Shown here: in pieces, positions 3,981-8,096 of the stretch
Layout: each line of letters opens with the position of its first letter
How positions within the stretch are numbered: the stretch's first letter is position 1
Source: Bordetella parapertussis
GTDB taxonomy: Bacteria > Pseudomonadota > Gammaproteobacteria > Burkholderiales > SG8-39
Length of the DNA stretch: 40,560 bases
Assembly: GCA_945897475.1 (NCBI GenBank)
Contig: CAMDFL010000020.1
Span: forward strand, 1-40,560
Direction of reading: 5' to 3'
Notes under the pieces: generated by a model
The model's database searches: none
The model's input: the letters and a program-made list of their open reading frames with translations, nothing else
Told to the model about the DNA's origin: nothing
Made by a program: the position numbers and the translations under genes

Positions 3981-4911
3981 CGGCCACCGAATCCAGGCGC
4001 GCGACAAACGCCGACAACGCCTCGGGAAGAGGCGAATCCAGCGTCAATTTAGTTCCCAGAGTTGGATGCTCAAAACTTAAGCGCGCGGCATGCAAAAACA
4101 TTCGCTTCAGTCCTTGTTTTGCCAGTTCCCTGTTCCAATCAAAGTCACCGTATTTGGTATCTCCTGCAACCGGAAACCCCAAATGCGCGAGGTGCACTCT
4201 TATCTGGTGCGTCCGCCCGGTTCGCAATTCCGCAGAAAGCAGCGTGTAGGGACCGGTGGCACGCTGCTTGCGAAAAATGGTGATGGACTCCTTGCCTTCG
4301 GCCTCAACACTCACTCGCCGTTCACCCGCGCCATTAACGTATTTGTGCAGGGGCAGATTGACGGTCCGCTTGACGTCGCTCCACTTGCCATTGACCAGGG
4401 TCGTGTAATGCTTTTCGGTTTTCCCTTCGCGAAGCAGCGCATGCAGGGCGGTCAGCGCCGATCGCTTTTTGGCGAGCAGCAAGACACCCGAAGTCTCACG
4501 GTCAAGACGATGCACCAATTCCAGAAACGCCAGTTCCGGGTGGCTGGCGCGCAGTCGCTCGATGACACCAAAGGAGATGCCGCTGCCGCCGTGAACCGCA
4601 ATCCCGGAGGGTTTGTCAACCGCCAGGAATTGCGCATCTTCGTACAATATGGGCAGCTTCAATTCCGGTGCCGGCGCACGAACGGAGGCTTGCGCGGTTC
4701 GAATCGGTGGAACCCGTACCTTGTCCCCTGCTTTGACCCGGTAGGTGGCGTCGACGCGGCGGCTGTTTACCCGCACCTCACCGGTTCGCAATATTCGATA
4801 GATGTGGCTGCGCGGCACCCCCTTACAGTGGCGCATCAGAAAGTTGTCGATTCGCTGTTCGCCCGAGTCCAGATCCACCTCGAGCGCCGCTACTTTGCTT
4901 AAATCATTCAT
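3961..4911 (-). CDS. rluC: 23S rRNA pseudouridine synthase RluC
   Basis: A 316-residue RluA-family pseudouridine synthase. An N-terminal S4 RNA-binding domain covers about residues 15-75 (QRIDNFLMRHCKGVPRSHIYR, then a segment with VNSRRVDATYRVKAGDKVRVPP), and the catalytic domain has the signature HRLDRETSGVLLLAK with the nucleophilic Asp. The C-terminal part has RTHQIRVHLAHLGFPVAGD, also typical. RluC modifies U955, U2504 and U2580 in E. coli 23S rRNA. It lies head-to-head with rne, the same arrangement as in E. coli, which supports RluC over RluD. No obvious Shine-Dalgarno precedes the ATG at 4911, and a TATAAG on this strand lies only a few bases upstream, so a very short leader is possible. 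Confidence 0.92.
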   Translation of the reverse strand: MNDLSKVAALEVDLDSGEQRIDNFLMRHCKGVPRSHIYRILRTGEVRVNSRRVDATYRVKAGDKVRVPPIRTAQASVRAPAPELKLPILYEDAQFLAVDKPSGIAVHGGSGISFGVIERLRASHPELAFLELVHRLDRETSGVLLLAKKRSALTALHALLREGKTEKHYTTLVNGKWSDVKRTVNLPLHKYVNGAGERRVSVEAEGKESITIFRKQRATGPYTLLSAELRTGRTHQIRVHLAHLGFPVAGDTKYGDFDWNRELAKQGLKRMFLHAARLSFEHPTLGTKLTLDSPLPEALSAFVARLDSVADDPAPI

Positions 4912-4923
4912 TTTGCTTATAAT
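4895..4923 (+). promoter_or_regulatory. Probable sigma-70 promoter of rne
   Basis: A perfect -10 box TATAAT (4918-4923) is preceded after 17 bp by TTGCTT (4895-4900), which matches the first three bases of the -35 consensus. Transcription would start near 4930, giving a 5' leader of about 350 nt before the rne start. The -35 lies inside the first codons of rluC on the other strand. Confidence 0.6.
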
Positions 4924-4929
4924 TAGTCG

Positions 4930-5282
4930 TTGCCCGCACTTTCGGGCAGTTTGACGGTCCGTTATTTATCGAAGCTTAATGGTACGTCACTGCCCTGCCA
5001 CGGCCCCACGCCGCGATTCAAAAATCCGTATTCTGGATATTTAAACTGAATAACTGAGGTGGAAAACCGAGATCTAGGCCGGCAACGGGTGGGTCAAATA
5101 ATGACCCGACGTCTCGATGATACAAGCGCGCCGAAAAATTAGAGGCAGAATTTAAGGCTCCGGTAAAAACCTAGGCCTCCAAACAAGTCAGAACCCATCG
5201 TCCATGAAAACTTTATATACGATGTCGTAAGCCCCAAAAAAGCTAGGACTTGTGCTGCCCGCGCGCGCGGGAGAATAAAACA
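4930..5282 (+). promoter_or_regulatory. Long structured 5' leader of rne, with Shine-Dalgarno in a GC hairpin
   Basis: No gene was found in this 353-bp stretch, but it holds several inverted repeats. One stem lies at the predicted 5' end (TGCCCG 4931-4936 with CGGGCA 4943-4948). A second has an A/U loop (GGGTCA 5091-5096, TGACCC 5102-5107). A third is a 14-bp perfect palindrome CCCGCGCGCGCGGG at 5258-5271, which takes in the first bases of the GGGAG ribosome-binding site (5269-5273), nine bases before the ATG at 5283. In E. coli the rne leader is of similar length (361 nt) and RNase E acts on it to control its own mRNA. A comparable autoregulatory role here is inference from position and structure. 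Confidence 0.55.
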
Positions 5283-8096
5283 ATGAAGCGCATGTTATTC
5301 AATGCAACCCAGGCCGAAGAACTCCGGGTTGCCATTGTCGATGGACAGAAATTACTTGACCTCGACATTGAATCGGCCGGTAAAGAGCAGAAAAAAAGTA
5401 ATATTTACAAAGGCATCGTCACTAGGGTTGAACCCAGTCTCGAAGCTGCCTTCATCGAATACGGCACTGACCGTCACGGCTTTCTTCCGTTCAAGGAAAT
5501 TGCCCGCGCATATTTTAAGCCCGGCGTTGATGTCGGTCGTGCGCGCATCCAGGACGCGATCTTCGAAGGCCAGGAACTGATTGTCCAGGTCGAAAAGGAC
5601 GAACGCGGCAACAAAGGCGCGGCGCTGACCACGTTTATCAGCCTCGCCGGGCGTTATCTGGTGTTAATGCCGAATAATCCCCGAGGTGGCGGCGTATCGC
5701 GTCGCGTCGAAGGCGAAGATCGTCATGAACTTCGCGAGACCATGGATAAGCTGGAATTCCCCCAGGGCATGAGCATCATTGCCCGCACTGCCGGCATCGG
5801 CCGAGGCCTAGAGGAACTCCAGTGGGACCTGAACTACCTGCTCAAAGTCTGGGAGGCCATCGAGGGGGCCGCTCAAACACAGCGCGATGATGCCGGCAAG
5901 ATCCAGAATCCCGCGCCCTACCTGATCTATCTCGAGTCGAATCTGGTGGTGCGTGCCATACGCGACTATTTCCACGACGAAATCGGTGAAATTCTCATCG
6001 ATACCGAGGATATCTATGAGCAGGCTTGCGCGTTCATGTCCGCGGTCATGCCCAACAAGGTGCAACTGGTCAAGCACTACAAGGACAATGTGCCCTTGTT
6101 CTCGCGCTTCCAGATCGAACATCAGATAGAGACAGCCTATTCACGCCAGGTTTCGCTTCCCTCCGGCGGAGCAGTAGTGATCGACCATACCGAAGCATTG
6201 GTTGCAATAGATGTCAACTCCGCACGCTCCACGCGCGGCAGCGATATCGAGGAAACCGCATTTCGGACCAATATGGAGGCCGCAGAAGAAGCAGCGCGCC
6301 AACTGCGCCTGCGCGATCTCGGCGGTCTGATCGTCATCGACTTTATCGACATGGAAAACCAGCGCAATCAGCGCGATGTCGAAAACTGTCTGCGCGAATC
6401 CATGCGCCACGACCGCGCCCGGGTTCAACTGGGCAAGATCTCGCGCTTTGGTTTGATGGAGTTGTCAAGGCAACGGCTGCGACCATCGCTGGGTGAAACT
6501 GCCCACCAACCCTGCCCGCGCTGCAGCGGTACGGGCTTCATCCGCGGCACCGAATCCACGGCGCTACACGTTCTGCGCATCATCCAGGAAGAGGCGATGA
6601 AGGAGAATAGCGCCACTATCCACGTCCAAGTGCCTGTGGATGTCGCTACCTTTCTGCTGAATGAAAAGCGAGTGGATATTGCATCGGTGGAATCGCGCCT
6701 GAAGGTCAATGTGATTCTGATTCCGAACATTCATCTGGAAACGCCAAATTACACGATTACCCGCCTGCGTCATGACGATCTGAATCACGAAGGCATCCAG
6801 CCGGCATCCTATAACATGGTAAATGTGCCTGCGGATGCGGAACATGCGCCGACGTCTCAGGAAGCCAAACCCGCGAAACCACAGGCAGCGGTTCAGAATG
6901 TCACACCTGAGATGCCCGCGCCGGCGCCGCTGGAAAAAACGAAACCTGCGCCAGTACAACCACCGGGCGCTGCCTCGGCGAGCGATGGCGCTGGAATCAT
7001 CGGCCGAATACTGGGGTGGTTCCGCGCCCCACCGTCACCCAAGGCAGTCAATACGGAGGCTGCCACGACCCATGCGCCACACCCGAATCGCGAGCGAGAA
7101 AATAGCGAAGGACGTGGCCGCGGCCAGCAACGTGGTGCTCGCGGTGGCGAGCGCCAGGATCGCGGCGAAGGCCGCGGAGGACAACGAGGCGACCGAAATC
7201 GTCAAGGTCAGCCTCGTGGAGATCGCCCGGATCGCGGCGACCGCAATGCGCCGCGCCAAGGGGAGAAAGCACGTGAAGACCGCGGAGAGAAATCGCGTGA
7301 AGACCGTCCGGATCGTGGCCAGCCTCAGGAAAACTTGCAGAATGGCGCGCCACGGCAGGAAGGACGCACCGAAGGCCGTCGCGATGGTCGCAGCGGTCGT
7401 CGCCGCGACGCAGAGCCACGCGAGCACAACAATGGCGAACAGCAAAATGCCGAAAACCAGCTCCAACTGGAACATGGACAGGCACTGGCTGATGCTGAAC
7501 GCTCAAGCGATACACCCCAGACCGGTGACCAACAATCGCCTAGGCCTGAAGGTGAACGCGGTGAGCGCGGTGGCCGTCGGCGCGGGGGACGCAATCGCAA
7601 TCGCGATGGTCGCCCGGCTATCGATCGAGCCGCGAATACCGAAGACACCAACCAGCCAACATCGACCCTGCCGCCTCCCATAACCATTGCGCAAGCCATG
7701 GCGCCGGTAGCCGAACGGGTCGAATCTGTTGCCGCGATTGCTAAGGAGGCCACCGCGACGGTTGAACCGCAAGAAAGCAAGCTTGCGTCGATGCCAACGT
7801 CGAGCGTGAACATATCATCCGAAGCACAGGTAAGCGTGAACAATGCGGCCACTGTCGAAGTCTCAGTGGCGCCTGTCATTAAAAAGCTTGAAGTCGCACC
7901 TGCCCCAGTCATTGAAAAAATCGATCTTGGTAAATCGCTGCAAGCCAGCGGACTGCAATTGGTGGAAACCCGAATCAAGGCGGAGATAGTCATCGAGCCC
8001 GAATTCGTTCCAGCCAAGCGCGAACGTCGCCCGCCACCTTCGTCGATGAGCGAGCCGCTGCAACAGGTCGAGACTGGCGTCAAGGACGCGGCGTAA
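5283..8096 (+). CDS. rne: Ribonuclease E
   Basis: A 937-residue RNase E, the endonuclease that starts most mRNA decay and processes rRNA and tRNA. The start ATG 5283 is fixed by the family N-terminus [17 protein letters not shown] and by GGGAG upstream. An S1 RNA-binding domain lies at about residues 35-125. The RNase H-like/DNase I-like core carries the metal-binding aspartates in VAIDVNSAR (about 308) and IVIDFIDM (about 351), and the zinc-link CPRCSGTG is near 410. After about residue 520 the protein is low-complexity: a Pro/Ala linker, then a long Arg/Gly/Asp/Glu-rich stretch (about 600-740), a second Arg-rich patch near 760-780, and a Val/Glu/Ala tail ending in EPLQQVETG. The tail is the presumed degradosome and membrane scaffold. 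Its GC-rich coding produces long spurious ORFs on the other strand. Confidence 0.97.

Follow-up and report, generated by a model that had tools for sequence, protein, structure and literature searches.

The leader of the betaproteobacterial RNase E gene, rne, may act in cis as a translational switch that controls RNase E synthesis, with RNase E as the likely operator, a reading to which we give a probability of about one half. In the proposed order of parts, a sensor element (an H-type pseudoknot, replaced by a plain hairpin in the sequence studied here) would be followed by an anti-anti-Shine-Dalgarno (anti-anti-SD) strand, then by an anti-SD arm and finally by the SD. This modelled switch architecture is well supported, and the stems, the covariation, the long-range complementarity with its computed effect and the restriction to rne are supported by computation. 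The sequence studied, hereafter the window, is a stretch of 40,560 nucleotides from a genome with betaproteobacterial relatives (Nitrosospira, Rhodocyclaceae, Methylophilaceae and environmental MAGs).

The rne leader and its putative promoter

The outline of the locus is given by the following features:

4895-4923, + strand: putative rne promoter, TTGCTT, 17-nt spacer, TATAAT (from sequence, alignment and a comparison of 97 loci)
4930-4949, + strand: 5'-terminal stem-loop of the leader, genus-level only (from the fold of 4930-4990; no enrichment over 97 loci)
5283-8096, + strand: rne, the RNase E coding sequence (open reading frame with homologues in 41 of 41 genomes)

The gene rluC is divergent to rne and starts at 4911; the putative -35 hexamer (TTGCTT, 4895-4900) lies inside this start and the TATAAT (4918-4923) lies 6 nt outside it. 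A simple sigma-70 scan called no rne promoter in the window because the -35 is weak. Most relatives nevertheless have a -10-like hexamer next to rluC, which over 97 loci lies a median of 6 nt (interquartile range 6-12) outside the start of that gene, and this supports a predicted transcription start near 4930. The long leader proposed by the first-pass annotation, which would reach the ATG at 5283 after about 353 nt, therefore appears to be real. Long rluC-rne intergenic leaders are also the norm among the loci compared (296-789 nt at the 5th-95th percentile), and the whole leader of the window folds with a z of -2.4, four of 100 shuffles being equally stable. A 5'-terminal stem had been proposed as well: 4930-4990 does fold in the window (z -4.6, with none of 200 shuffles as stable), but over the 97 loci the first 36 nt of the leader hold no more structure than shuffles (mean z -0.35), and we therefore treat the stem as a genus-level feature and reject it as a feature of the family.

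A pseudoknot family upstream of rne

Most betaproteobacterial rne leaders examined (61 of 100 loci) carry an H-type pseudoknot, located 137-509 nt upstream of the rne ATG. The locus set counted 109 loci once L105, which has no start, had been dropped, and 100 after de-duplication; the figure of 61 was reached after removal of L048 from the element set as a chance regex match. Stem S1 of the pseudoknot is (N)NGGU/ACCN(N) and stem S2 is UCGCU/AGCGA, the UCGCU lying within the S1 loop and the AGCGA further 3'. In a plain MAFFT alignment of the 61 loci, 90.2% of the pseudoknot cells pair (86.5 in shuffles), 24 cells are two-sided (8.3 in shuffles) and the covariation score is 0.130 (0.081 in shuffles). 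None of 500 shuffles reaches any of these three values, and sliding the partners out of place gives far lower ones. When the alignment is restricted to 39 in-register loci of the 61, omitting out-of-register S1 rows, near-duplicates and Methylophilaceae rows, 98.3% of the cells pair. Another 26 loci, in an alignment that was fitted to the model, also uphold S1 and add 3 two-sided cells, and RNAalifold, which cannot draw pseudoknots, recovers S2 only. The S2 change from G-C to A-U is found in 8 loci on few independent branches; independent contrasts on the tree amount to 5 for S1 and 2 for S2, too few for significance. Covariation, by which the first-pass annotation proposed to judge the leader stems, is two-sided in the pseudoknot of the 61 loci; in the SD hairpin described below, sought among the 15 closest loci, it gave zero two-sided changes.

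The element also shows a G.U asymmetry (22 G.U versus 2 A.C) that fits the rne strand, and on this ground we reject the idea that it forms part of an antisense rluC leader. A leader peptide was likewise considered and rejected: the three + strand open reading frames wholly within the leader encode 21-39 aa and are unsupported, and differences in the length of the S1-S2 spacer are not multiples of three. In the Azonexus group (L040, L046, L047, L055, L072, L081 and L082), a further block, GGAUUGCCCGUUGCAGGAAUUUUCAGG, is strongly conserved 3' of the pseudoknot tail, and this conservation suggests an extra element in the group.

Of 300 genomes of the order, 165 match R2, a covariance model of the pseudoknot, at E<=0.001, and almost all of these hold a single match; rne lies beside the match in 29 of the 30 best loci, the remaining one being at a contig end. 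Across a sample of the class, weak matches (E 7e-4 to 0.01) occur in 9 of 369 genomes, none of the 9 having rne nearby, and the E. coli rne region gives no match. Cultured laboratory betaproteobacteria that have the canonical element include Azospira oryzae, Nitrosospira multiformis and Methylovorus. The canonical element was not found in the leaders of Ralstonia, Cupriavidus, Bordetella, Achromobacter, Pusillimonas and Limnobacter. One record titled as a Bordetella parapertussis MAG (L032) does carry the element; in the RNase E tree this record clusters with the environmental MAGs L031 and L033, well away from Bordetella, and the Bordetella label looks wrong. In five Bordetella, Pusillimonas and Achromobacter loci (L092, L096, L097, L104 and L106), two conserved palindromic hairpins, for example GUGACC..GGUCAC and GCGCCGAUAUCGGCGC, stand directly 5' of the SD in the last 60 nt before rne and replace both the pseudoknot and the SD hairpin; judging by sequence, they possibly constitute a third type of leader.

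The window belongs to a lineage in which the element seems to have been remodelled:

5091-5107, + strand: hairpin GGGUCA-AAUAA-UGACCC, apparent S1 remnant, S2 missing (z -2.9; agrees with the canonical element of relatives in location and in the sequence that follows)

The stem with an A/U loop seen here in the first pass is indeed present, none of 200 shuffles being as stable. This S1-like hairpin alone is left in the window, which has no S2 and no R2 match; the closest relatives (L002-L004) have no R2 match either, and the hairpins of L006 and L013 match R2 weakly (24.5 and 20.2 bits). Plain hairpins with differing complementary stems occupy the same place in the window and its relatives (GGGUCA/UGACCC, GGUUG/CAACC, UGGUC/GACCA and GGUCC/GGACC) and are followed by a UGAU-like conserved stretch and GCGCG. 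The hairpin is thus an apparent remnant of S1, S2 having apparently been lost in the lineage of the window. S2 loss may have happened twice, because the leaders L001-L004 and L006/L011/L013 fall in different clades of a quick protein tree with moderate support.

The proposal that this architecture differs from that of the E. coli leader is supported by the comparison with known families. No Rfam family, rne5 (RF00040) and rne-II (RF01756) included, reaches its gathering score around rne in the window or in any of 20 betaproteobacterial loci; E. coli rne, the positive control, matches rne5 at 235.3 bits, and at E<=10 Rfam gives nothing but an ES003 match below threshold on the opposite strand. 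Like the leaders described here, rne5 is a long cis element upstream of rne, and we know of no pseudoknot or anti-anti-SD strand in it. Feedback by RNase E is a feature of rne5, which senses the enzyme through a stem-loop, as described in the accessible text of PMC3997798. rne-II resembles our element in being a computationally found structured rne leader; unlike it, rne-II has no match in betaproteobacterial leaders and is listed for Pseudomonadales only in the accessible part of its report (PMC2864571).

The closest precedent within the class is a 2011 Bordetella paper suggesting that a transcript beside rne, BprA of B. pertussis, might be a 5'UTR element, and so already treating an rne leader of this class as a candidate cis element; its accessible part gives no structure (PMC3110155), and Bordetella leaders, again, are without the canonical pseudoknot. 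The same work invites another explanation, namely that our element belongs to a separate small RNA from the leader region: BprA flanks rne in the same orientation and, except for transcript B, independent transcription is reported in the accessible text (PMC3110155). We regard this as very improbable, given that the authors themselves propose that BprA may be the rne 5'UTR (PMC3110155), that Bordetella lacks the canonical element and that the tail of the element is complementary in cis to the SD hairpin. Apart from this Bordetella suggestion, we found no paper on a betaproteobacterial rne leader structure in a search of openly accessible main texts, and the RNA family, the pseudoknot and the long-range strand are absent from Rfam 15. 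The functional kind, a cis-regulatory rne leader, is already known; the family, the pseudoknot and the strand appear to be new, as judged from Rfam 15 and the literature searched.

The Shine-Dalgarno hairpin and the strand that competes with it

The switch proper would be formed by the following parts:

5116-5132, + strand: conserved strand GAUGAUACAAGCGCGCC 3' of the hairpin (from sequence comparison; lowers the SD opening energy)
5125-5132, + strand: AGCGCGCC, segment 1 of the anti-anti-SD strand, complementary to 5261-5268
5144-5148, + strand: GGCAG, segment 2, complementary to CUGCC at 5255-5259 in the anti-SD arm
5148-5153, + strand: GAAUUU, possible RNase E site of the RNWUU type (from sequence; between the anti-anti-SD strand and the SD hairpin; not in all relatives)
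5250-5278, + strand: SD-sequestering hairpin UUGU/AUAA, CU/AG, CCCGC/GCGGG, GCGC loop (from fold and arm-swap test; rne-only in 41 genomes)
5269-5273, + strand: Shine-Dalgarno GGGAG, wholly within the hairpin (from sequence and fold)

The palindrome at 5258-5271, first reported as 14 bp, is present and sequesters the SD, but it measures 14 nt: it forms a stem of 5 bp around a GCGC loop, and CU/AG and UUGU/AUAA lengthen this stem. Its stability is ordinary for its composition (z -0.6 and -1.0), and opening the SD of the window costs 4.8 kcal/mol in the local fold, a value equalled or exceeded by 41 of 126 genes of the same genome; we therefore reject extreme SD occlusion in the window itself. 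As a group, rne SDs are more closed, with a median of 6.5 over 99 rne starts versus 3.8 in the background (Mann-Whitney 3e-13), a comparison that rests on 126 genes of one genome, from which the relatives differ in composition, because rluC starts could not serve as a control, an SD being present at the start of that gene in just 3 loci.

Among the 100 non-redundant relatives, the SD is usually in or against a hairpin, in forms that include CCCGC/GCGGG, CUCCUGC/GCAGGAG and CCCGUG/CGCGGG. Swapping the 5' arm among these loci weakens the duplex (native -11.0 versus permuted -10.15, sd 0.15; 0 of 5000 as low), relatedness among the loci contributing to this figure, and a model of the SD hairpin, R1, matches once per genome and solely at the rne start in 15 of 41 genomes. 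The occlusion of the ribosome-binding site proposed in the first pass is thus kept by relatives with both arms changing together, even if the palindrome of the window is unexceptional, and on the sequence comparison the weight of the hairpin comes from its conservation, not from its energy. A test of the base at SD -1 and its partner was left unused; it is biased because fold-derived partners must pair. A small hairpin in the first rne codons (CGCAU...AUGCG, 5289-5306 in the window) also recurs in many predicted folds and is broken in some relatives. That the palindrome and the leader stems are ordinary GC-rich sequence with no regulatory role would be in keeping with the unremarkable energy of the window palindrome and with the 41 genes whose SD is at least as closed; conservation across the family, and most strongly the covariation, make this explanation hardly credible.

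Just 3' of the pseudoknot, a strand is complementary to the SD hairpin: CGCGCUCAAG with CUUGAGCGCG in L036, CGAUCAAG with CUUGAUCG in L027, L053 and L063, and GCGCGCGCAGG with CCUGCGCGCGC in L019. The pairing is stronger in native than in permuted combinations (-23.8 versus -20.7 kcal/mol, sd 0.42; 0 of 5000 as low) and the longest perfect helix is longer (7.0 versus 5.8; 0 of 5000 as good), although most long-range columns are invariant, so that a GC-rich constraint could inflate this complementarity. One helix column beside the invariant core does vary (C-G 38, G-C 2, A-U 1, mismatch 1): it is paired in 41 of 42 loci versus 35.5 permuted (maximum 39 in 5000), the test taking the 42 of 82 tails that hold GCGCU and AGCGC. 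The window retains the strand at 5125-5148, where AGCGCGCC and GGCAG match GCGCGC and CUGCC of the SD hairpin in a duplex of -25.9 kcal/mol. The second match is kept in L004 (GGCGG opposite CCGCC) and broken in L002 and L003.

The strand has a marked computed effect on the SD, in thermodynamic calculations made without pseudoknots and on structures that are all predicted. Over 67 loci (L016, too short, being excluded), opening the SD costs 4.07 kcal/mol with the native strand versus 6.44 without; the cost is lower with the strand in 54 and shows no drop in 13. Swapped strands change it by -0.69, versus -2.37 kcal/mol for native ones. In the 49 loci whose strand lies 200-360 nt from the start, a 50-nt deletion raises the cost by 2.42 when it removes the strand versus 0.21 for other blocks (108 blocks; Wilcoxon 4e-7), and strand deletion has the largest effect in 38 of the 49. 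The effect was repeated in 18 previously unused loci (+2.67, positive in 16). When the fold is constrained to leave the SD open, pairing between the strand and the anti-SD region is predicted in all 63 loci, and in some loci the tail pairs with the beginning of the coding region as well. The strand lowers the opening cost from 4.56 to 2.34 kcal/mol in the window, from 7.73 to 1.06 in L003 and from 8.57 to 1.64 in L002, the last value being rough owing to masked bases; the full fold of the window still favours the closed hairpin. The window hence contains what we take to define the switch: an SD within a hairpin and a 3' strand complementary to it that lowers the cost of opening.

Translational riboswitches follow an anti-SD/anti-anti-SD logic, in which an upstream strand competes with an SD-occluding hairpin. 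The rne leader is alike in this competition and differs in that it has no ligand candidate and that the gene product is the ribonuclease itself. SD occlusion is probably one state of a two-state switch, because the upstream strand competes with the occluding hairpin beside a family-wide pseudoknot. A simpler mechanism would dispense with the two states: the element would be a site at which RNase E docks or cleaves to speed the decay of rne mRNA, the SD hairpin merely weakening translation. The leader hairpin of E. coli rne offers a precedent (PMC3997798, accessible text) and the element and the SD hairpin are each conserved independently; nonetheless, covariation links the SD hairpin to the strand next to the element, and the presence of that strand specifically reduces the cost of opening the SD, so that we consider this mechanism rather unlikely.

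RNase E as the likely operator

The two-state switch may be outlined as follows. In an intact and unbound leader, the strand would pair with the anti-SD arm and loop, leaving the SD open. Plentiful RNase E would bind the sensor element and/or cut between the strand and the SD hairpin, where the window has GAAUUU and its relatives have possible, though not universal, RNWUU sites, RNWUU being what we take to be the consensus of RNase E sites. With the strand removed or occupied, the hairpin would close over the SD, translation would stop, and the untranslated, unprotected rne mRNA would then decay. We infer the identity of the effector, the cut site and the existence of both states in cells.

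Three points make RNase E a fitting operator: the element goes with rne; in E. coli the enzyme recognises a hairpin in the leader of its own message (PMC3997798, accessible text); and when RNase E is mutated in B. pertussis, rne is one of the genes with the strongest upregulation, according to the accessible part of PMC8386462. By analogy, the mutant result favours rne autoregulation in the class, even though Bordetella leaders are without the canonical element. The switch might alternatively be governed by some other input, be it temperature, a small RNA or a protein of the ribosomal or RNA-binding kind; riboswitches and thermometers commonly use an anti-SD/anti-anti-SD layout, and the computations are neutral as to the effector of the leader. 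Such an input seems improbable to us, the element being restricted to rne and RNase E genes being autoregulated elsewhere (PMC3997798 and PMC8386462, accessible parts).

If RNase E is the operator, it is tempting to go further and to propose, tentatively and with less confidence than the switch itself, a class-wide RNA family through which RNase E would gauge its own abundance, removing by cleavage the strand that opens the SD, in a manner unlike rne5; the lineage of the window would have swapped the pseudoknot for an A/U-loop hairpin while keeping the switch.

The bulk decay of RNA is under the control of RNase E, whose feedback loop is understood mainly from work in E. coli. If betaproteobacteria use a conserved leader of unrelated structure, it would follow that different RNA sensors have evolved for RNase E homeostasis. 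The leader provides a defined and mutable system in which to study how a nuclease senses its own level, and it also lets one ask how a pseudoknot rewires to a hairpin with the switch kept.
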